IMG/VR virus record: IMGVR_UViG_3300009480_000001
Span: 1 to 25,716 of that record
DNA length: 25,716 bases
From: a virus
Direction: 5' to 3' (one strand)
Shown here: positions 383-14,291 of the stretch, one piece after another
Layout: every line of letters starts with the position of its first letter
How positions within the stretch are numbered: position 1 is the stretch's first letter
Notes under the pieces: generated by a model
Seen by the model: only the letters and a program-made list of their open reading frames with translations
Database searches by the model: none
What the model was told of the DNA's origin: nothing
Position numbers and translations under genes: made by a program

Positions 383-1594
383 ATGAAAAAAATAATATAT
401 GATATTGAAATATTTACTAACTTTTTCTACCTATTATGTAAAGATATTACTGAAAAAGAAAGTAAAATATTTGCTTTTGAAATAAGCCCAGTTAAAGATG
501 AAAGAAAAGAATTGTTAACTTTTCTAAGTGATAGAAAAAAGATAATGATTGGTTTTAATACTCTTAAATTTGACTGGCCTTTGTTAAATCATTTTGAAGA
601 TTTAATGAAAAAATATCCATTAATGTATACAGATATTCTTACTAATAATCTTAAAAACAAAGCTAATAATTTAATTAATTCATCATTTGTTCATGCAAAT
701 AATAAAATCATACAGTTAGATTTATTAAAAATAAATCATTATGATAATAAAGCTAAAATGATTTCGTTAAAAGGTCTTGAGTTTTCTATGAGAATGAATA
801 ATGTTCAAGAATTACCTTATGCACATGATAAAGTATTAGAATTAAATGAAATAGATGTAGTTAAAGGATATTGTGTTAATGATATCAATGCTACATATGA
901 ATTGTTTTTAAGAACTAAAACATTAATTGATGATAGGTTTAAATCTAGTTATTTATATAAAACAAATCTTTTAAACTATAATAATCCTAAATTAGGTGAA
1001 TATATTTTAATTAAAAGAATTAAAGAACATTTAAATAAAGAAGATTTAGGTCAAACATATAGAAAAGAAATCATATTAAAAGATATCATTTTTCCTTATA
1101 TAACATTTGAACATGAACCATTTAAAAACATACTTAATTGGTTTAATAAAAAAATTATAAAAGAAACAAAAAGTGTTTTTACTGAAATACCATTAGAAGA
1201 AATAGAAGAATTAAAACCTAATATTAATATTAAGATATTTAAAAAGACAAATCTTAAGAAATTAAATGTGGTACATAAAGGTTTTGAATTTACATTTGGG
1301 ACTGGTGGGATACATGGGGCTGAAAAAGGTATTTATTATAGTGATGAAAATTACAAAATAATGAGTTTTGATGTTAAATCTTTGTATCCAAATATTAGTA
1401 TTAGAAACAATTTGTTTCCTTTACATTTGGGTAATACTTTTTGTGAAATTTATGAAGATATATATAATGAAAGATTAAAATATCCTAAAAGTGATAGTAG
1501 AAATGAATTGTATAAATTAGCATTAAATGGTGCATATGGTAAATCTAATTCTATACATTCTTCATTATATGATCCTCAGTTTACAATGTCCATT
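383..1594 (+). CDS. Family B DNA polymerase, exon 1 (3'-5' exonuclease, palm motifs A and B)
   Basis: This exon encodes residues 1-404 of a split replicative DNA polymerase; exon 2 is at 2730-3401, giving 627 residues after splicing. The N-terminal DnaQ-like proofreading domain keeps Exo I (D7 and E9 in YDIEIF), Exo II (N59, D64) and Exo III (Y163, D167 in YCVND). The polymerase domain has a GTGGIHG element (306-312), motif A DVKSLYP (330-336) and motif B KLALNGAYGK (378-387). The reading frame continues to a stop at 1622-1624, but the last codons after I404 resemble no polymerase. A 7-bp P1 helix and the family sequence both place the exon end after ATT at 1594. Joined, the product reads TMSI-NGQLLL, as expected between motifs B and C. 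Confidence 0.93.
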
Positions 1595-2729
1595 AACAAA
1601 ATGGTGGACAATAAATGTGGTTAATTGCTGGAATATCCTAAAGATTTAAACACTACAACATGAATTTGAGATAATTGAGTGTGAAAGTAAAAAAGTTTAA
1701 ATATATGTTATTTTATTTGACCATTTATAGTATATTAATAATTAAATATATTATAATCTTAAATAAACACATAATGGACAATCAGCAGCCGAATCCTGAA
1801 GAGGGAAGGGTTCAGAGACTATCTCGTAAGAGAGTACTTAGTAATAATATTACTTGGGAAACACCACAGATAAAAAATAAAATTTATATTTATAAATTAG
1901 TTTCTTCAGAAAATATAAATATCCCCAGATATATAGGTATATCAGATAATCCCATAAGAAGACTAAGTCATCATACAAGTATATCTAAATTATACAAGAA
2001 TAATTATAAAAATAATTGGATAAATTTGGAACAAAAAAATGGTAATGAAATAATAATGATTGTTTTTGATACAGCTAATACTGTAGAAGAAGCATTGATA
2101 AAAGAGGAATATTATATTACTAAATATAATAATCTTACTAATTATATTTTAAAACCAACTCTTCCAAATTATAAAAAATGTTATTTGTATAATATATATG
2201 AAGAAAAGACATACTTTTTTACTTCTTTACAACAAGCATCTAAATATTTAAATATTACAATATCAGGATTATATCGTAATTTAATTAATTCTAAATGGTT
2301 ATTTTCATATGAGAATAACTTTAAAGAAATTATTAAAAGAAGAGCTAGTATTAAAACAAAACATTTAATTTCTAATGATATAAAATATTTTATAAATCAT
2401 CGACATGCAGCATATTATGTTAATTGTTCTATTGGAATGATAAATCTATGTTTAACGAAACATAGAAAATCAGCTAATAATTGGTTGATATGTAAGATAA
2501 ATGATGATTTTATACAATATGAAAATAATCATTTTAAAAAAATAAAATGTATAAATGATGGTTTAGTATTTAATACAATAAAAGAAGCATCGAAATACTA
2601 TAATATTGATTCTTCATGTATTGTAAAAGTATGTAAAAAAACAAGAAATAGTATAAAAAAATATAAATTTGAATATTTATCATGATATAGTCCATTTATA
2701 ATAGAAATATTATATGTAAAAGCACTTTG
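1595..2729 (+). ncRNA. Group I intron 1, in the DNA polymerase gene (1135 nt)
   Basis: Exon 1 ends GTCCATT, which pairs over 7 bp with the internal guide GGTGGAC at 1603-1609, with U-G at the splice site. The core follows: a Q-like ACAATCAGCAGCC (1778-1790), R GTTCAGAGACTAT (1810-1822) and S GATATAGTCC (2684-2693). P7 forms between GACTAT (1817-1822) and ATAGTC (2687-2692). The terminal G is 2729, after which the polymerase frame resumes with AAT GGT CAA. The insertion lies between polymerase motifs B and C, a highly conserved site. A GIY-YIG endonuclease reading frame fills the space between R and S and starts before R. The Q and R sequences are nearly the same as those of the intron at 6651-6976, so the two are relatives. 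Confidence 0.92.
1774..2685 (+). CDS. GIY-YIG homing endonuclease with NUMOD-like repeats, intron-encoded
   Basis: A 303-residue protein from the ATG at 1774; the frame is open further upstream only through TTG/GTG codons inside the intron. The GIY-YIG nuclease fold is seen as IYIYKL (37-42) and RYIG (52-55), then arginines at 62-63 and an acidic helix EEALIKEEYY. The C-terminal half holds about three repeats of roughly 45-50 residues with the pattern F...A(S)KY...I....(L/V), as in NUMOD1/IENR1 DNA-binding modules. Such enzymes cut intronless alleles and spread their intron. The first 20 residues are read from the intron catalytic core and the TGA stop lies inside the S element, so the coding region spans essential RNA structure at both ends. 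Confidence 0.88.
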   Translation: MDNQQPNPEEGRVQRLSRKRVLSNNITWETPQIKNKIYIYKLVSSENINIPRYIGISDNPIRRLSHHTSISKLYKNNYKNNWINLEQKNGNEIIMIVFDTANTVEEALIKEEYYITKYNNLTNYILKPTLPNYKKCYLYNIYEEKTYFFTSLQQASKYLNITISGLYRNLINSKWLFSYENNFKEIIKRRASIKTKHLISNDIKYFINHRHAAYYVNCSIGMINLCLTKHRKSANNWLICKINDDFIQYENNHFKKIKCINDGLVFNTIKEASKYYNIDSSCIVKVCKKTRNSIKKYKFEYLS

Positions 2730-3401
2730 AATGGTCAATTACTTCTTAGTATGTTATGTGAACAATTAATGGATATACCAAATAGTAAATTATTAATGAT
2801 AAATACTGATGGTGGAGAAATCATTATACCATCAAATGAAATTAATAAATTTTATGATATTTGTAAATCATGGGAAAAATTAACAAAACTTCAATTAGAA
2901 TATAATATATATAGTAAAATATTAATCTCTAATTGTAATTCATATATAGCAATATATGAAGATGGTAAAGTTAAACAAAAAGGTCCTTATACAATAGAAA
3001 GAGAATTATATAAAGATCATTCTAAATTAATAGTTCCAAAAGCTGTAGAAGCATATTATCTTCATAATATTCCAATTGAAGATTTTATTAAAAATCACAA
3101 TGATATATTTGATTTCTTTTTAAGAACAAAACTTAATAAAGATTCAAATTTAATTGGTATTAATGGTGATGATATTATTCAATTACCAAAATTAACAAGA
3201 TATTTAGTTACCAATACTGGATATACTTTGTTAAAAATAATGAATGAACGTCAATTCAATATACAGAAGGATTATTTATGTACTCCTTGTAATTATTTAA
3301 ATGATGAAATTAAAAGTGAATTATTTAAAAACATAAATTATGATTTTTACATAGATAAAGCTAATAAACTGTTAATTGGAGAAAACAATGAAGAAAACTA
3401 A
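2730..3401 (+). CDS. Family B DNA polymerase, exon 2 (motif C and thumb)
   Basis: This exon provides residues 405-627 of the polymerase begun at 383. It starts NGQLLLSML directly after the intron's terminal G and carries motif C as MINTDGG (427-433), the metal-binding aspartate being D431; NTD instead of DTD is common in phage polymerases. The remaining ~190 residues would form palm and thumb. A TTG at 2727 keeps the same frame open for one more codon, but that codon lies in the intron and there is no reason to expect independent initiation. The 3' end overlaps the start of the helicase gene (ATG at 3388) by 14 nt, so the two are probably translated from one transcript. Confidence 0.92.
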   Translation, partial: NGQLLLSMLCEQLMDIPNSKLLMINTDGGEIIIPSNEINKFYDICKSWEKLTKLQLEYNIYSKILISNCNSYIAIYEDGKVKQKGPYTIERELYKDHSKLIVPKAVEAYYLHNIPIEDFIKNHNDIFDFFLRTKLNKDSNLIGINGDDIIQLPKLTRYLVTNTGYTLLKIMNERQFNIQKDYLCTPCNYLNDEIKSELFKNINYDFYIDKANKLLIGENNEEN

Positions 3402-8216: not shown

Positions 8217-9185
8217 ATGTACTATCAGCCCGATGTTTATATACCAAATACTATAGATGGTATATATTCTTATTATTCAGAAGAAGATATATTTAAACTT
8301 GTATTTGGAGAATATCCAAATTATGATAAAAAATATGTTAGTCCTTTTAGAAACGATAATTATCCAAATTGTTATTTTATAAAAAAAGATAACCATATTT
8401 ATTTTGTAGATTGGGCAGATAGTACAATAGGTGCTGTTGGTTCTATAGTAAAAATGTATAATTTAAGTTTAAAAGATGCCATCTCTTATATTAAAAATAA
8501 TATAGTTATAGGAGATATTAATTTAAAACCAAAGATTATACAAAATTTTAATAAACCTATAAAAACACCAACTCTTATAATACCAAAAAAAAGAGATTGG
8601 GAAAAAAGAGACAGTATTTATTGGACAGATAGATATGGTATTACTATAGCCAATTTAGAAGAAGATAAAACTATTCCAATTTCTTTTTATTCATGGAGAA
8701 AAAATAATATATGGAAACATACATCTTTGAAAGAAATTGGTTATGCTATATCTACTAATGATAATAAATATAAAATTTACAGACCATTAGATTCTAAAAA
8801 TTCAAAATGGTTATCAAATATACCTAAAAATTATATTTTAGGTAAATATACAAATAATGGAAATTTGATAATTACAAAGAGTTATAAAGATTATAGAGTA
8901 ATTTATAATTTTATAGAAGATAATGTTATATGGTTACAAAGTGAGGGTTCAATACCAGATAATATAAATGATTTTGTTGAAAATTATGATAACATAACAA
9001 TATTTTATGATAACGATAATGCTGGTATAAATGCTAGTAATAAGTTAGCTAAAATAATTACCAAACCAACAAATTTAATTTATACTCCTGAAAAACACCT
9101 AAAAGATATTTCGGAAATGTACTGTTTTAAGGGTAAACAGTTTACAGAAAAATGGTTAAAAAATACCCTTAATTTAAAAAAATAA
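8217..9185 (+). CDS. DnaG-type primase, TOPRIM domain
   Basis: A 322-residue primase. The N-terminal region has the phage primase pattern SPFRNDNYPNC (42-52) followed by FVDWAD, the place of the zinc-binding domain, though the usual cysteine ligands are missing. The TOPRIM domain shows ITKSYKDY (219-226), where many phage primases have KS.KD in place of the EG..D motif, and the metal-binding pair FYDNDNAG (D265, D267). It makes RNA primers for the polymerase encoded at 383-3401. The end of the gene contains a 9-bp inverted repeat described separately. Confidence 0.82.
   Translation: MYYQPDVYIPNTIDGIYSYYSEEDIFKLVFGEYPNYDKKYVSPFRNDNYPNCYFIKKDNHIYFVDWADSTIGAVGSIVKMYNLSLKDAISYIKNNIVIGDINLKPKIIQNFNKPIKTPTLIIPKKRDWEKRDSIYWTDRYGITIANLEEDKTIPISFYSWRKNNIWKHTSLKEIGYAISTNDNKYKIYRPLDSKNSKWLSNIPKNYILGKYTNNGNLIITKSYKDYRVIYNFIEDNVIWLQSEGSIPDNINDFVENYDNITIFYDNDNAGINASNKLAKIITKPTNLIYTPEKHLKDISEMYCFKGKQFTEKWLKNTLNLKK
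9127..9172 (+). repeat. Inverted repeat at the 3' end of the primase gene
   Basis: TTAAGGGTA (9127-9135) and TACCCTTAA (9164-9172) are perfect 9-base inverted copies, enclosing a smaller GTAAAC-A-GTTTAC hairpin. They lie in the last codons of the primase, 43 nt before the ubiquitin-like gene. There is no downstream T-run, so this is not a typical intrinsic terminator; it may be an RNA structure protecting or separating the downstream message. Confidence 0.45.
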
Positions 9186-9214
9186 TTATTTTAATAAATT
9201 TTGATATAAAAAAA

Positions 9215-9808
9215 ATGAAAGTTACAATTTATAGTACAGCTGGTATCAACGGTAATGTTGTTGACCTTCTTTCTACTGTTACAACTTATGGTCAGCTAAA
9301 GACTGCTGTTGGTAATAGTTATCCTTGGTCAACTTCTAATGTTGCTGATGAATCTGAGAAAGAATATATTTCAGATTCTGATACTATTCCTTCAGAAGAT
9401 TTCTGTCTTTTTGTTTATCCTAGACAGACAAAATCTGGTGCAACAATGAGTCAGCTTCCTTATAATGCAGTTAAGCGTACTATCAACAACATTATTGAAA
9501 ATAGTGATGAGGCAGAAGATTTTTTCGGTGACTTTGAAATGCTCAGTACCCTTGAACTCAATGAGATGCTTACCAAGTGGTATGATTATGAAGAAAAGAT
9601 GAAATCAGAAGAAGATTTTCTTGATAACACAATCACTCTTGAAGATATTTGTAAGTTTATTGATTATAAATATATAGTATATACTTCTGATACAAGGGAT
9701 AGACCAACTCTTGAGACTATTGTTAGTTCAATTGTCAATCATTTTGCAATGCCTGATCTTTGTCAAATCAAGTATAAGGAAATTGCAAAAAAGAAGGGTT
9801 GGGTTTAA
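9215..9808 (+). CDS. Ubiquitin-like beta-grasp protein with C-terminal extension (predicted modifier precursor)
   Basis: A 197-residue protein. Residues 1-75 have the order and length of a ubiquitin-like domain: strand MKVTIYST, turn, strand VVDLLSTV, helix YGQLKTAV, then a last strand FCLFVYPRQTKSG ending at G75, compared with ubiquitin's LHLVLRLRGG at 67-76. After G75 comes a 122-residue, mostly helical, acidic extension ending KKKGWV. The assignment rests on this pattern and on the E2-like, JAB and E1 genes that follow. Its leucine codons are unusual here: ten CTT, two CTC, one CTA and no TTA/TTG in 13, which suggests high expression. A strong terminator follows immediately. It could be a beta-grasp protein without conjugation function. 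Confidence 0.6.
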   Translation: MKVTIYSTAGINGNVVDLLSTVTTYGQLKTAVGNSYPWSTSNVADESEKEYISDSDTIPSEDFCLFVYPRQTKSGATMSQLPYNAVKRTINNIIENSDEAEDFFGDFEMLSTLELNEMLTKWYDYEEKMKSEEDFLDNTITLEDICKFIDYKYIVYTSDTRDRPTLETIVSSIVNHFAMPDLCQIKYKEIAKKKGWV

Positions 9809-9830
9809 TTACTTAACTTTTAATTAATTT

Positions 9831-9869
9831 AAAGGGAATAGACAATATATTTGTTTATTCCCTTTTTTT
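9831..9869 (+). terminator. Strong intrinsic terminator after the ubiquitin-like gene
   Basis: A 15-bp stem (9831-9845 with 9851-9865, including AAAGGGAATA and TATTCCCTTT), a 5-nt loop TATAT and a run of T. It lies 22 nt after the ubiquitin-like stop and 13 nt before the E2-like start. It should end most transcripts from the replication side after the modifier gene, so that the conjugation enzymes are made at lower levels by readthrough or from their own promoter. Confidence 0.87.
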
Positions 9870-9881
9870 ATTTATTGTAAC

Positions 9882-11102
9882 ATGGAAAGAATAATATATA
9901 ACAATGATTTTGATTTTAAAGAATTAAATCTTAAACATAATTTTAAACTTTCTGATACATCAATTGATATAATGAATATCATATTGACTGCATTAAGAAA
10001 AACATATCCAGATGAATTTGAAATTATACCTGACATGTCTTTTAAAACAGGTAGATTTTTTATTATAATTCATTTTCCAACAATTAATATTACAAATATG
10101 AAACATGAAGAACATGTTATTCATGACATATTTGTAAAATTAACAATTTATATAGATAAATCTGTTAATAGATTGCAATTATGTAATATGAGTGGGATGA
10201 GAACTTCATATACTAAAAAAGAAATTATTGCAAGTTATTCTCATAGTCATTTAAGTGGTGCAGTTCGTAGTTCATTTGGTCCTTGGAGAGAATTTGTAGA
10301 AACAGGTAGATATTATAGTTTATCAGAAATAAATAATGCATTAAAATTTCAACAATATGAAACTTTATTTTCAGATTTTTGTCTTGGTGGCGGTGGTATT
10401 AATAAAATAATAAATGTCATAAATAGCCAAAATGAATTTCAAAAAAACATCAATAATTGGATACTTTTCTTTAGATCTATAAAAGCATATTTAGAATACG
10501 AAAGTCTTGAAGGTGGACCTTATAGAAGAATAGAAGATATTGGTAGAAATAATGGTAGAACAGGTGATATATCAAGTAATGCTAATATTTATTCCAATAT
10601 TAATATAGAAAGGACAATATACTCTTATTCACAAGATATTCTAAATATTCTAAATGATTTAGTTAGAGATAAACAAATAGAATTATTTTTAAATGAAAAT
10701 AATAAAATAGAAGTCAATTATAATTCTAATTTAGAACCACTTTTTTATGACAAATTTAAATCTTGTTACAACATATGCATTTCTGATGGTTTTTATATGT
10801 TAAGACAAGGAACAGAACCTAATTTTTATTATGTATATGCTAAAGATATTTTAAAATATTCTTTTTCTGAAGAAAAAATTAAACATTTAGAAGAATATTA
10901 TTTTCCATTTAGAGATAAAACTTTTCAAGCCAATTTAATTGATAAAAATGCAATATTTGATGAAAGAAAAACAGTTGAAGAAGTATTTCATCCTTCAACA
11001 ATAAAATTAATTTTAAAATATTATACAAATGTCTGTAATATCAAAAAAAATAGTATTACCAATAGTAAACAGTTTTGCTCGCCCATTGCTTCTGATTTCT
11101 GA
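9882..11102 (+). CDS. Predicted E2-like (ubiquitin-conjugating fold) protein
   Basis: A 406-residue protein. The N-terminal ~180 residues fit a divergent prokaryotic E2: strands FFIIIHFP (59-66) and DIFVKLTIYI (82-91), a histidine motif YSHSHLSG (119-126) where E2s have HPN, and FCLGGGG (166-172), with C167 as candidate thioester cysteine in a CLG context like the CL of classical E2s. The spacing between histidine motif and cysteine is longer than in eukaryotic E2s. The C-terminal ~200 residues are unrecognised. It precedes JAB and E1 genes, and its last 74 nt overlap the JAB gene in another frame. Sequence alone does not prove catalysis; it could be an inactive RWD-like scaffold. Confidence 0.58.
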   Translation: MERIIYNNDFDFKELNLKHNFKLSDTSIDIMNIILTALRKTYPDEFEIIPDMSFKTGRFFIIIHFPTINITNMKHEEHVIHDIFVKLTIYIDKSVNRLQLCNMSGMRTSYTKKEIIASYSHSHLSGAVRSSFGPWREFVETGRYYSLSEINNALKFQQYETLFSDFCLGGGGINKIINVINSQNEFQKNINNWILFFRSIKAYLEYESLEGGPYRRIEDIGRNNGRTGDISSNANIYSNINIERTIYSYSQDILNILNDLVRDKQIELFLNENNKIEVNYNSNLEPLFYDKFKSCYNICISDGFYMLRQGTEPNFYYVYAKDILKYSFSEEKIKHLEEYYFPFRDKTFQANLIDKNAIFDERKTVEEVFHPSTIKLILKYYTNVCNIKKNSITNSKQFCSPIASDF

Positions 11103-12336
11103 TGAATTTTATAAACAAGCAGATATACTTTGTAAAAATATTTCCACTGTAGAATGGAGTGGTATTGTTATCTATAAAATAACTGGTTCTATACTTTCAT
11201 TATTTAATGCAAGTGAAGCTAAAGTACCCAAAGAAAGTATATTCATTGAAGCACTGGACATTATTCCTATGGACAAAGGAACAGCAGGTTATACTGATTA
11301 TAAATTTGGTCCTAAAGTTCAAAAGTATATGAAAAACCTTGCTGAAGAAAGAGGTATTGATCCTAAAACATTATATAGTTCAAGACTTGGTCATGTACAT
11401 TCACATGTAAATATGGCTACTGGATTTAGTGGTACAGATATGGATGAACTAGATGATAATGTTCGTAATCATAATGGATATCTCTCTATTATTACTAATA
11501 ATAGAAAAGAATATAATGCAAAATTTGTTGTAGCAGCATCTTTAAAATCAAAAAACGAAGGTGTATTTACTGATATTGATGGTCAAACAGCTACTTATAC
11601 AAAAGAATATCCAGAAAAAATGTCAATGGTAGTATTTGAACCAGAAATTATTTTTGAAGACAAAGAAATTTTCTTTAATAAAACCTTTTTGGAATCTATG
11701 GAAAGTATTAAAGCACCTAAAGTTCCAAAAATCCCAGTTTCACCACATAATTATCATCAATATTATAATAATAGATATTCTGAGATTGATGATTTATTTG
11801 CAGAAATAGGTAGTAAAGATTATAGTTCACCAAAATTAGATGAAATTATTAAAGAATTTGATCATAATAATGGTAGAAGTCAAGTTTTAGTATCAGGGAA
11901 TGTCAATACAAATAATACAAATAATACTAAAAATGTTAAAGAAATTGAAAATGTATTTATGAATTTTATTACTATTGCTTTAGTAGAAGCACATTATTCT
12001 GAAGAAATAAAATATAAAGCTGAATTATATTCTTTAACAAGAATCTTACATGATTTGACAAAATCTTATGTTACAGAAGATGATAAAATAATCTTCAAAA
12101 CAAATTTAGAAGATACAATTCCAGAAGCATATACTAGTATTCTTGGTACTTTTGATACTATGAAAGATCTTGAATCATATGTAAATACATTACGTGAAAC
12201 AATGTCATTCTTTAGTACAAGTATGTATGTAAAAAATTATACTGAAATATGTAAACTTATCCAGTCTACTTGTAACCATATCATTAATGATATGAAAAAG
12301 AAAATGAAATCAACTAAAAAATTAATAACAACATGA
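11029..12336 (+). CDS. JAB/JAMM-domain metalloprotease (predicted deubiquitinase-like) with C-terminal helical domain
   Basis: A 435-residue protein with a complete JAMM zinc site: E42 (EWSGIVIY), then H124-S-H126, seven residues, S134 and D137 (HSHVNMATGFSGTD). This is the E...HSH-x7-S-x2-D signature of active isopeptidases such as Rpn11 and AMSH. The JAB fold occupies about 1-220. A proline/asparagine-rich linker (about 230-300) with a NTNNTNNT tract leads to a helical C-terminal domain (about 305-435) that I do not recognise. The start at 11029 is needed to include E42, since the next in-frame ATG is at residue 81. It overlaps the E2-like gene by 74 nt and the E1 gene by 4 nt (ATGA). Likely role: maturation or removal of the ubiquitin-like modifier. 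Confidence 0.9.
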   Translation: MSVISKKIVLPIVNSFARPLLLISDEFYKQADILCKNISTVEWSGIVIYKITGSILSLFNASEAKVPKESIFIEALDIIPMDKGTAGYTDYKFGPKVQKYMKNLAEERGIDPKTLYSSRLGHVHSHVNMATGFSGTDMDELDDNVRNHNGYLSIITNNRKEYNAKFVVAASLKSKNEGVFTDIDGQTATYTKEYPEKMSMVVFEPEIIFEDKEIFFNKTFLESMESIKAPKVPKIPVSPHNYHQYYNNRYSEIDDLFAEIGSKDYSSPKLDEIIKEFDHNNGRSQVLVSGNVNTNNTNNTKNVKEIENVFMNFITIALVEAHYSEEIKYKAELYSLTRILHDLTKSYVTEDDKIIFKTNLEDTIPEAYTSILGTFDTMKDLESYVNTLRETMSFFSTSMYVKNYTEICKLIQSTCNHIINDMKKKMKSTKKLITT

Positions 12337-13124
12337 GTGATCTATCTGATTCTATAGATATAAAAATTGTTCCAAATAAATATACAAGATTTAAAGATGC
12401 ATCTTGGTTTGAAACAATTCAAAATCAAGAATTATTTATTGGTGGAGCTGGTGGGATTTCTTCATGGTTGGCACTAGCGATTGCTAGTGCTGGTTGTGAA
12501 AATATAACAATTATAGATTTTGATACAGTAGAAGAAGTAAATCTTGCTGGTCAATTTTTTAAAAAATCTCAAATCAATACCAGTAAAGTGAGAGCTGTAT
12601 ATGATAATATTATAGATTTTTGTGATTTGTCTATTAATATGTCAAATTCAAAAATAGAAAAAGATACAGTATTACCATTTACTCATATTCTTACTGGTTT
12701 TGATAAAATGTTACCAAGAGAATTAACATTTAAACAATGGTGTAAAACTGTAGATAATTGTCTTACAGAAAAAGAAAAAAGAAATTGTATTTATATGGAT
12801 GGAAGATTGACAGCCGAGCAAATTCAAATATTTACCATTATTGGAACAGATGAACTTGCAAAAGAAGAATATCTTACTAATCATATATTTTCGGATAATA
12901 CAATAGAAGATGCGCCATGTACATTTAAACAGACAAGATTTTTAGCAATGAAAATTGCTGGTATAATGACTGAAATATATACCAATTATCTTGCAAATAT
13001 TTCAACAGAGGTTTATGGACCTAAACAAGTTCCATTTTTCTTTCAAACATATACACCTCTAATGAATACTGTTAAAATTAATAAACTAATTAAAAATGAC
13101 GACAGTAGTACAAGAACAACCTAA
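12333..13124 (+). CDS. E1-like/ThiF-family adenylyltransferase
   Basis: A 263-residue ThiF/E1 protein. The Rossmann adenylation site shows LFIGGAGGISSW (34-45), IIDFDTVEEVNLAGQ (60-74) with D62, D64 and N70, K85, and the second-motif aspartate TGFD (D124). A candidate transthiolation cysteine lies in APCTFKQT (C196), close to the CTxRxT context of eukaryotic SUMO E1. The arginine normally found in NxxRQ is glycine here (NLAGQ). E1 enzymes adenylate the modifier C-terminus and form a thioester before passing it to E2. Starts in a 4-nt overlap with the JAB stop and overlaps the next gene by 29 nt, so it belongs to one translation-coupled unit. Confidence 0.92.
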   Translation: MSDLSDSIDIKIVPNKYTRFKDASWFETIQNQELFIGGAGGISSWLALAIASAGCENITIIDFDTVEEVNLAGQFFKKSQINTSKVRAVYDNIIDFCDLSINMSNSKIEKDTVLPFTHILTGFDKMLPRELTFKQWCKTVDNCLTEKEKRNCIYMDGRLTAEQIQIFTIIGTDELAKEEYLTNHIFSDNTIEDAPCTFKQTRFLAMKIAGIMTEIYTNYLANISTEVYGPKQVPFFFQTYTPLMNTVKINKLIKNDDSSTRTT

Positions 13125-13899
13125 TTCTAGAGTTGCTATTAATGAAATACCAAATTTTGTAAATCCAGATACATATTCATCTGATCGTACTATTCAATTT
13201 TCATCTATTTATGATGATGATCAAAAATGTGTTCTAAATATTAAAGATGCAGATGAAAAAACATTAGGTATAGCAATAAATAATATATTACCCTCTAAAT
13301 ACATAATTTCATTAAAAAATAGTAAATTGATTCCTTATTTTGCATGGCAATGTTTTAATCATATAAATTTTTCAAATATATCTATAGATGGAAATATGAT
13401 ATCATTACCTACAAATTATATTAATTCACGTCATATGCCGTTGTCTTCACTTAAATATGTATTATCTGGACAAAGTGGTAGATATAGAACTATTAATCTA
13501 ATAACTCCAACATTTTATATAAATATTAATGGTACAAGACATCGTATTCGTGCAAGAGAACATTTTATGTATAGTTCTGAATATCCTAATATATTAGAAA
13601 ATAATGCAGTTGATGATATAGAACCAATTATAATGATTGCTTTATGTTCAAGTAGAGATCAAAATAAAATGGAACCTTTTAATATAAATAAAAGCATACT
13701 TGTTGTAAATACAAATCAAGAATATGCACCATTAATGAAACCTGTTAATAAATATATAAAGCTTTATAAAGAAAATGGTATTAAAAATATATTATATACA
13801 GATAATCCTAATTATTATATTTTTGATCAAAATGTAGAAAAAATAGATCTTATGAGAAAAAGTGATAAAGAAGAATATTTACTACAATTTTTACCATGA
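13096..13899 (+). CDS. Unknown protein coupled to the E1-like gene
   Basis: A 267-residue protein I do not recognise. It appears alpha/beta, with a central part containing paired basic residues (HRIRAREHF) and a repeated NI-rich hydrophobic pattern; no membrane segment or zinc motif is visible. It overlaps the E1 gene by 29 nt and its stop overlaps the nuclease start (ATGA). Position makes it a candidate specificity factor, substrate or regulator of the conjugation set, but that is inference only. Leucine codons are typical of the region (13 of 20 TTA/TTG), unlike those of the ubiquitin-like gene. Confidence 0.75.
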   Translation: MTTVVQEQPNSRVAINEIPNFVNPDTYSSDRTIQFSSIYDDDQKCVLNIKDADEKTLGIAINNILPSKYIISLKNSKLIPYFAWQCFNHINFSNISIDGNMISLPTNYINSRHMPLSSLKYVLSGQSGRYRTINLITPTFYININGTRHRIRAREHFMYSSEYPNILENNAVDDIEPIIMIALCSSRDQNKMEPFNINKSILVVNTNQEYAPLMKPVNKYIKLYKENGIKNILYTDNPNYYIFDQNVEKIDLMRKSDKEEYLLQFLP

Positions 13900-14291
13900 A
13901 TACTAGAAAAGTTTCAAATAATAGGGTTAGGGGACATAATTTTGAAAGAGCTATAGCAAAATTATTCAGAACTTTAGGTTTTGACAAAACTAAAACATCA
14001 AGACAAGCTTCTAGATTACTTGATAATAGCAAAGTTGATTTGTGGGGATTACCATTTAATATTCAATGTAAAGATGGTATTCAAAAAGGTTTATCTTATA
14101 GCAAAGTTCTCTCAGAAATGAGAGAACTTCTTGCTATTAATTATCCAGACACTGATCCTCAAATAACATATCCAAAAATTATAATACATAAGAAACTTCC
14201 ATTTGGTAAAAAGAGAGTTGAAGAAGATACTCTCGTTGTTACTACTTTAGAAGATTTTATTAAAATTATAACTAGTCAATATGGAAATTAA
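13896..14291 (+). CDS. Holliday-junction-resolvase-like nuclease (PD-(D/E)XK fold)
   Basis: A 131-residue protein matching the Hjc-like pattern: basic N-terminus, RGHNFERAIAKLFRTLGF (12-29) with E17, SRQASR (35-40), VDLWG (D48) and IQCK (Q57, K59; the canonical ExK glutamate is Q here). Such enzymes cut branched DNA late in replication, fitting the recombination genes upstream. The Q for E change occurs in active family members, so I expect activity. It overlaps the preceding stop by 4 nt and the next gene by 11 nt, so it shares a transcript with the E2-JAB-E1 genes. Confidence 0.75.
   Translation: MNTRKVSNNRVRGHNFERAIAKLFRTLGFDKTKTSRQASRLLDNSKVDLWGLPFNIQCKDGIQKGLSYSKVLSEMRELLAINYPDTDPQITYPKIIIHKKLPFGKKRVEEDTLVVTTLEDFIKIITSQYGN

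Follow-up and report, generated by a model that had tools for sequence, protein, structure and literature searches.

A candidate ubiquitin-like conjugation system encoded by crAss-like and Flavobacterium phages

The precursors of eukaryotic ubiquitin and UFM1-type proteins are cut after a Gly residue, and the bacterial Bil and Bub systems include a dedicated ubiquitin-like protein (Ubl) beside an E1, an E2 and a JAB-type peptidase. Bacterial defence by conjugation uses E1, E2 and JAB-type peptidases, for example in CBASS (Cap2/Cap3), as described in the available parts of PMC13373217 and PMC12135933. According to the part of Iyer et al. (2006; PMC1779556) available here, bacterial operons of type 6d combine a Gly-ending Ubl, an α-helical protein, an E2, a JAB and an E1; from this composition we infer that they are the PRTRC cassette. 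The same part describes TAPI and TAPK, tail-assembly proteins of lambdoid and T1 phages, in which a Ub-like domain with a C-terminal Gly is followed by a further domain, with an adjoining JAB predicted to cut there. Here we analyse five open reading frames (ORFs) that occupy positions 9215-13899 of a viral sequence, IMG/VR record IMGVR_UViG_3300009480_000001 (positions 1-25,716, the whole 25.7-kb stretch, called the window below), and that encode a Ubl precursor, an E2-like protein, a JAMM peptidase, an E1 and a fifth protein, X. Judging from sequences and structure models, this block is likely to be a phage-encoded, reversible ubiquitin-like conjugation system.

9215..9808, + strand: Ubl precursor, 197 residues (AlphaFold model, ubiquitin-family neighbours)
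9882..11102, + strand: E2-like protein, 406 residues (UBC-like element order; 41 of 50 listed VIA rows E2/UEV/RWD, best Z 6.4)
11029..12336, + strand: JAMM/JAB metallopeptidase, 435 residues (zinc motif by codon; CSN5 and JAMM1 by profile)
12333..13124, + strand: E1/ThiF-type adenylating enzyme, 263 residues (Pfam ThiF, 1.5e-14)
13096..13899, + strand: X, 267 residues, fast-evolving fifth protein (positional conservation; no Pfam match)

An earlier note, made from the window's sequence, had proposed a complete conjugation pathway in this phage. Four families or probable folds, conserved candidate catalytic residues and a fixed gene order now lend that proposal computational support. What the sequences and models support directly are these families and probable folds, the candidate residues, their conservation, the gene order and a Gly75 boundary in the Ubl.

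Recurrence of the four-gene order and the Ubl precursor

Relatives of the E1 were found in 74 phage records, every one of them at below 60% identity. Among the carriers are crAss001 and DAC15 of Bacteroides, crass phages of the human gut that are uncultured, and phages of Flavobacterium, for instance Fpv3. With 12 E1s as queries, IMG/VR yielded 139 relatives; the 80 best of these and one from GTDB genomes make up the 81 loci used here (handles of the form L001). In profile searches of the locus ORFs, Ubl, E2, JAB and E1 were present in this order in 74 of the 81. The other seven lacked at least one of the four genes; six of them end inside the block and the seventh (L082) has only 575 nucleotides upstream of E1. 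Among loci with enough upstream sequence, none had JAB and E1 but lacked Ubl and E2, the arrangement that the earlier note had named as contrary to its proposal. The same order was seen in 11 named-phage neighbourhoods that we opened, some of them among the 81, with the Ubl gene split in cr106_1. With 74 of 81 loci in order, the other seven cut short or nearly so, and 11 named phages, the recurrence of the cassette is not due to chance.

Conserved residues were counted in E2 rows of 250-520 residues (72 of 81), JAB rows of more than 200 (79 of 82) and E1 rows of more than 180 (84 of 86). The corresponding Ubl set (n = 77) omits the tail ORF of the split gene. Two further alignments, A6 and A7, omit duplicates, L015, L016 and long or partial ORFs, and A7 also omits the L050 Ubl ORFs.

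The cassette is not found in all relatives. Profile searches did not find E1 or JAB in crAss002 (Intestiviridae), cr55_1 (Suoliviridae) or Cellulophaga phage phi14:2 (Steigviridae). The positive controls crAss001 and Fpv3 were detected, but since both contributed rows to the profiles, more distant forms of E1 and JAB could escape these searches. A search of the same three genomes for E2 gave one weak match in a 4,249-residue frame of crAss002, which is probably due to chance. Searching plasmids with the E1 returned only one distant ThiF. The sole GTDB relative (L095) is a 3.7-kb contig with a crass-type E1 and X that was binned as a Spirochaetia metagenome-assembled genome and is probably phage DNA.

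The Ubl precursor divides into a domain and a tail at one conserved residue.

9215-9439, + strand: Ubl beta-grasp domain, residues 1-75 (AlphaFold model)
9440-9805, + strand: Ubl tail of 122 residues, mostly helical (AlphaFold model)
9437..9439, + strand: Gly75 codon, predicted mature C terminus (K-S-G|A); the only invariant column in 66 Ubls

The earlier note had predicted a ubiquitin-sized beta-grasp protein at 9215. The AlphaFold model, made with 66 rows, bears out the fold: its first ~70 residues form a mostly confident beta-grasp, followed by a break (pLDDT below 50 at residues 74-76) and then helices. The predicted size does not hold, as the gene encodes 197 residues, a domain of ~75 with a tail of 122. 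The 50 Foldseek matches listed were almost all of the ubiquitin family (best E 2.9e-03, probability 1.00), and VIA gave Z scores of 6.9-7.7 over 64-73 residues among its 50 listed rows, the tool's comfort level being 8. Structural neighbours comprised ubiquitin, UBX, DIX and molybdopterin-synthase chains. By sequence, the window protein had no significant Pfam match and its best PHROG (2e-06) is of unknown function; a Pfam scan of 11 Ubl members and a PDB profile search with 66 Ubl rows gave no relevant relative.

Gly75, which the earlier note had overlooked, is the sole invariant column of the 66-row alignment, which was not selected for Gly. None of the 77 precursors terminates on it. The chain ends one residue past the Gly in five, three past it in one and five past it in one; an eighth short Ubl, with two residues past the Gly, is a split gene (L050, by gene layout the same phage as cr106_1), and the remaining precursors extend 24-252 residues beyond it. 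Gly75 thus appears to be the mature C terminus, with every member needing to be trimmed. In cr106_1 (L008 2725-3928) the annotated HNH gene begins right after the K-S-G codons; the Ubl ORF ends ...KSGKF, and the Ubl tail is encoded apart, by an ORF whose start resembles that of the Ubl gene by eye. An intron was considered as the cause of this split and rejected, given that there is no Rfam match and each of the two ORFs has a start and a stop codon of its own.

Since Gly75 looks like a maturation site, the JAMM peptidase probably trims the precursor, and a need for trimming in every Ubl would explain why a JAB is found in every locus that is long enough. The tails themselves vary. One of 11 precursors scanned (by eye that of cr126_1, L009 3323-4249) has a ribosomal L7/L12 C-terminal domain (5.1e-12), and the L086 tail has a weak SAP-like match (0.12).

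Candidate catalytic residues of the JAMM peptidase, E1 and E2-like protein

11152-11154, + strand: JAMM E42 (codon reading)
11398-11439, + strand: JAMM H-S-H-x7-S-x2-D (codon reading)
12918-12920, + strand: predicted catalytic Cys196 of E1 (84 of 84 rows)
10242..10250, + strand: HSH motif, E2 residues 121-123 (H123 in 71 of 72 rows, H121 in 66 of 72)
10380..10382, + strand: Cys167, predicted catalytic Cys of E2 (72 of 72 rows; invariant in the 60-row alignment)

Reading the JAMM gene by codon confirmed the complete zinc site claimed for it, a Glu with H-x-H-x7-S-x2-D, as E42 plus HSHVNMATGFSGTD. In the rows that cover each position, E42 was present in 76 of 76, H124 and H126 in 77 of 77, and S134 and D137 in 79 of 79; residue 125 is Ser or Thr. 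The single-sequence Pfam match of the JAB was marginal (0.063). A profile of 12 relatives matched CSN5, subunit 5 of COP9 (0.0014), and JAMM1 below significance. Two JAB genes are interrupted, by a group I intron in L053 (3588-3847, 3.3e-16) and by a split in L046 (3505-4692).

The adenylation motifs of the E1 and its Cys in a CTxKxT context could likewise be read by codon, as GAGGI and CTFKQT with C196. G38, G40, G41, D62, D64, N70, Q74, K85, D124 and R129 were conserved in 84 of 84 rows, as was C196, one of the two search patterns having contained the C196 motif. Profile matches were to UBA5 (8e-13, the top solved structure), MccB, ThiF and MoeB, and Cys196 aligns near the 'SCS' of PRTRC ThiF. 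In GenBank the E1 is labelled as a thiamine biosynthesis protein (crAss001), ThiF family, E1 enzyme family (bajarodcaudo virus 1) or hypothetical, and the JAMM protein as a metalloprotease-domain or hypothetical protein.

The thiamine label raises the question of whether E1 and Ubl act as a sulfur carrier pair like ThiF/ThiS or MoeB/MoaD, with the E2-like protein as a sulfur-transfer or structural partner. The best NCBIfam matches of the E1 are indeed ThiF/MoeB families (a ThiF family at 1.4e-16, PRTRC_ThiF at 0.011), and the molybdopterin-synthase chains among the Ubl neighbours would fit as well. However, the listed ThiF/MoeB scores lie far below their cut-offs, and apart from the E1 no thiamine or molybdopterin gene is annotated in the 11 neighbourhoods. 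The invariant Cys of the E2-like model, a JAMM beside E1 in 74 of 81 loci and the extensions past the Gly better fit conjugation. We therefore regard a sulfur carrier as very unlikely.

In the E2-like protein, both motifs that the earlier note had seen were read by codon, HSH at residues 121-123 and FCLG with C167; the HSH stands where classical E2s have their HPN motif. Only C167, G169 and E207 are invariant in the 60-row alignment, and all three were present in 72 of 72 rows of the second one. Between H123 and C167 lie 7-43 residues. In the model the order is helix, four strands, HSH, Cys and helices, which is the element order of the UBC fold. On VIA realignment, 41 of the 50 listed rows were E2, UEV or RWD chains by title, with the TSG101 UEV at the top (Z 6.4, 3.8 Å over 133 residues). 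The model of the 9882 product, where an E2/RWD fold was expected, agrees with it in element order and in most of its neighbours, with modest Z scores. As VIA warns that a Z below 8 may reflect a common arrangement, we call the UBC/E2 fold of the 9882 product probable, not proven.

Variants of this protein were seen in several loci. L040 (2994-5064) has tandem E2-like ORFs, the second of which retains the Cys and lacks S122/H123 in the alignment. The E2-like proteins of L017, L079, L081, L083, L084 and L088 are N-terminally extended (571-695 residues), and five extensions scanned had no significant Pfam match. Four viral proteins of 423-592 residues in BFVD (A0A516LHL3, A0A516M3P8, A0A516KZW4 and A0A516ML27) resemble the E2 model (E 4e-03 to 1.4e-02) and are possibly the E2s of further phages.

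A number of points weigh against a conjugation system. One of the two DNA patterns that define the loci contains the E1 cysteine motif, and the Gly75 tallies in the 77-Ubl set came from a trim that required the Gly, which those in the 66-row set did not. Near-duplicates remain among the loci (for example L015/L016, L024-L026, L031/L032, L060/L061, L069-L071 and L091/L092), so there are fewer independent phages than 74. The ratio of nonsynonymous to synonymous substitution (dN/dS) among three near-identical strains was 0.70 and 1.9 for E2, from changes too few to use, and against contig L003 it exceeded 1 for Ubl, E2, E1 and X, also from few changes. No E3 was recognised, and the available text on crAss001 virion mass spectrometry names other proteins. 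Finally, the E2-like protein was not found by sequence searches (Pfam with the window protein and 12 members, PDB profile with 60 rows); its best PHROG is of unknown function (1.4e-06), Foldseek of its model against the PDB gave no match at E 0.001 or better, and its best VIA Z falls in the range that the tool calls common.

The last of these points, together with a probability of only 2% in the profile comparison with the PRTRC E2, would suit a protein that is no E2 at all, in which an α/β arrangement arose by chance and the Cys is structural. The pathway would then be limited to Ubl activation and JAMM cleavage. Against this stand the UBC element order, the invariant Cys after the HSH, the predominance of E2/UEV/RWD chains in the VIA rows and a local comparison with PRTRC B whose best match, though not significant, falls on its C-x-G motif. 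We consider this alternative unlikely, and retain a probable E2 within the conjugation system.

The fifth protein, the replication setting and the proposed cycle

An ORF of at least 150 residues starts within 80 nucleotides of the E1 end in 77 of the 78 loci with enough flank; three of the 81 had too little, and in the exception (L023) the ORF starts farther off. X was recognisable by profile in only part of the loci (40 ORFs), so it evolves fast; the rest are counted by position and may not all be homologues. It had no Pfam match in the window and none of significance for two divergent copies. The best PHROG match of the window X was weak (0.0025), and a scan of 12 members gave only three PHROGs, all without a known function and each hit by a single member. 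Its role may be that of a scaffold or of a subunit that selects targets.

The cassette lies between two genes of DNA metabolism.

8217..9185, + strand: DNA primase, directly upstream (PHROG 12622 DNA primase, 6.6e-32; Toprim_2, 2.3e-05)
13896..14291, + strand: predicted Holliday junction resolvase/PDDEXK nuclease, directly downstream (PHROG 244 RusA-like resolvase, 3e-09)

All seven genes over 8217-14291 are on the + strand, in the order primase, Ubl precursor, E2-like, JAMM peptidase, E1, X and resolvase. By codon reading, E2 and JAB overlap by 74 nucleotides, JAB and E1 by 4 (ATGA, as the earlier note had it), E1 and X by 29, and X and the resolvase by 4. The resolvase ORF matches PHROG 15993, whose function is unknown, more strongly (9.4e-17), and its dN/dS of 1.6 derives from a truncated contig end. 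The placement of the cassette in a replication block, proposed from the window, extends to its relatives: in 71 of 74 loci with both genes detected the primase ends within 2.1 kb 5' of the Ubl gene (gap of at most 77 nucleotides in 30 of the 71), and in the remaining three it is elsewhere. Genes near the cassette in crAss001 include a Holliday-junction resolvase, an exonuclease, a uracil-DNA glycosylase, ribonucleotide reductase and dUTPase. Distance matrices correlated with that of the primase at 0.83 for Ubl, 0.81 for E2, 0.84 for JAB and 0.75 for E1 (75 phages or loci). Such a correlation is expected for any co-inherited genes and speaks solely against the cassette having been shuffled recently.

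Elsewhere in the window, a GIY-YIG ORF (1675-2685; Pfam 1.8e-06) sits between ORFs 383-1624 and 2727-3401 (window 383-3401), which may be the two parts of a single interrupted gene; Pfam has no match for either, and no Rfam intron was found. No Rfam match at gathering thresholds and no tRNA was found in the window.

Taken together, the proteins suggest the following cycle. Cleavage behind Gly75 by the JAMM peptidase would free the Ubl precursor of its tail, so that the chain ends in ...K-S-G. E1 would then adenylate the Gly with ATP and hold the Ubl on Cys196 as a thioester, from which the E2-like protein would take it on Cys167 and hand it on to a phage or host protein, at a lysine or another nucleophile. 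Removal of the Ubl from its target could again be the work of the JAMM peptidase. The targets are a guess; as the cassette lies beside primase, nucleases and nucleotide enzymes, replication or repair proteins are the first candidates, and host or defence proteins the next.

The system might instead serve counter-defence, with the Ubl put on host immune proteins or the JAMM stripping Bil- or CBASS-type tags from phage proteins, and replication not its target. The fast evolution of X would suit this, arms-race proteins often evolving fast. Bacterial E1/E2/JAB systems act in anti-phage defence, according to the available part of PMC10097602, and that of PMC12135933 describes a Bacteroides strain with a Bil-like system, systems of this type being said to tag phage tails and thereby impair assembly. 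Such a role would alter the target, not the chemistry. The cassette, however, sits in the replication block with a divergence that tracks the primase (r 0.75-0.84), whereas counter-defence genes are usually more patchy, and we judge this role possible, if rather unlikely.

More speculatively, a lineage of crAss-like and Flavobacterium phages might run a complete Ubl cycle on its own replication and repair machinery, in parallel to the modification of PCNA, the cleavable tail being a domain for targeting or holding, and X an E3-like target-selecting subunit of a new type. We offer this tentatively, as a picture that may well not hold in full.

The cultured crass phages crAss001, DAC15 and frurule carry these genes under the labels thiamine biosynthesis, metalloprotease or hypothetical. 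If the conjugation cycle is true, relatives of common human-gut phages tag proteins much as eukaryotes do, and this role for a bacterial virus can be tested in an ordinary phage-host pair, with the Gly75 maturation signature as a single-residue experimental handle. The divergent Ubl and E2 families would also widen the record of prokaryotic ubiquitin-like pathways.

Comparison with known conjugation systems

Among the matches listed from the open-access literature (subscription journals and preprints being outside its scope), none describes the block. Term searches of the available text of PMC7886860, PMC6235969, PMC10172136 and PMC10354031 for ubiquitin-type terms, which differed from paper to paper, gave no mention of the cassette products. 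In two further papers that contain both crass and ubiquitin-like, the words belong to citations of work on bacterial defence.

The closest parallel is in gene order. The PRTRC genes of plasmid pMOL28 run ParB-E-C-F-B-A-ThiF, so Ubl-(F)-E2-JAB-E1 occurs in PRTRC cassettes too, and the order, which looked distinctive to the earlier note, is not. With HHalign, the phage families matched their PRTRC counterparts at 99% (E1/ThiF), 93% (JAB/A), 2% (E2/B) and 0.1% (Ubl/C); the PRTRC sets were small, at 7-10 rows each, so that distant kinship could be missed. Dropping two doubtful C rows (L105 and L107 of ten) gave 0.15% for Ubl/C. X had no HHalign match to the PRTRC families, and X, Ubl and E2 were not like PRTRC F. 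ParB, E and F are not annotated in the 11 phage neighbourhoods, a statement that for ParB and E rests on annotation and not on profile searches. A PRTRC-like run does occur in the 33-kb Burkholderia phage BgVeeders33 (L107, 3713-7250), around a relative of PRTRC B (1e-29), with ORFs positioned like F, B, A and ThiF and an ORF unlike C at C's place.

Acquisition of a PRTRC plasmid cassette by horizontal transfer, for plasmid-like maintenance of the genome, would account for the shared order C-F-B-A-ThiF and for the profile alignments of JAB with A and E1 with ThiF. It would leave Ubl and E2, which have no detectable homology to C and B, unaccounted for, along with the lack of an annotated ParB, E or F counterpart and an E1 that scores far better against a ThiF family than against PRTRC_ThiF. 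An origin of this kind seems scarcely probable. The phage cassette further differs in having the extra protein X and a long tail on most Ubls. It resembles the PRTRC cassettes, which are on plasmids, in having Ubl, E2, JAB and E1 in the same order, with no F counterpart recognised, and in its JAB and Ubl: the PRTRC JAB has an HSH...FFSxTD motif, and the PRTRC Ubl has a Gly that is C-terminal or nearly so. On these sequence features the cassette would work like PRTRC-type systems, but they do not establish membership in PRTRC.

The defence systems CBASS, Bil and Bub also have E1, E2 and a JAB-type peptidase, with a dedicated Ubl in Bil and Bub; the phage differs in having separate E1 and E2 proteins, in a replication block. 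In the sole sequence comparison with them, the phage E1 gave only partial matches to PADLOC E1-E2 models (best 8e-09). TAPI and TAPK are encoded by tail genes, not replication genes, and have no E1 or E2 as described in the available part of PMC1779556; they share with this cassette a phage-borne Ub-like domain with a Gly and an extra domain next to a JAB. Compared with the eukaryotic ubiquitin and UFM1 systems, the phage E1 is short (228-403 residues in 12 reference phages) and no RING or HECT E3 was recognised; the likeness to them lies in the E1, whose top solved-structure match is UBA5.

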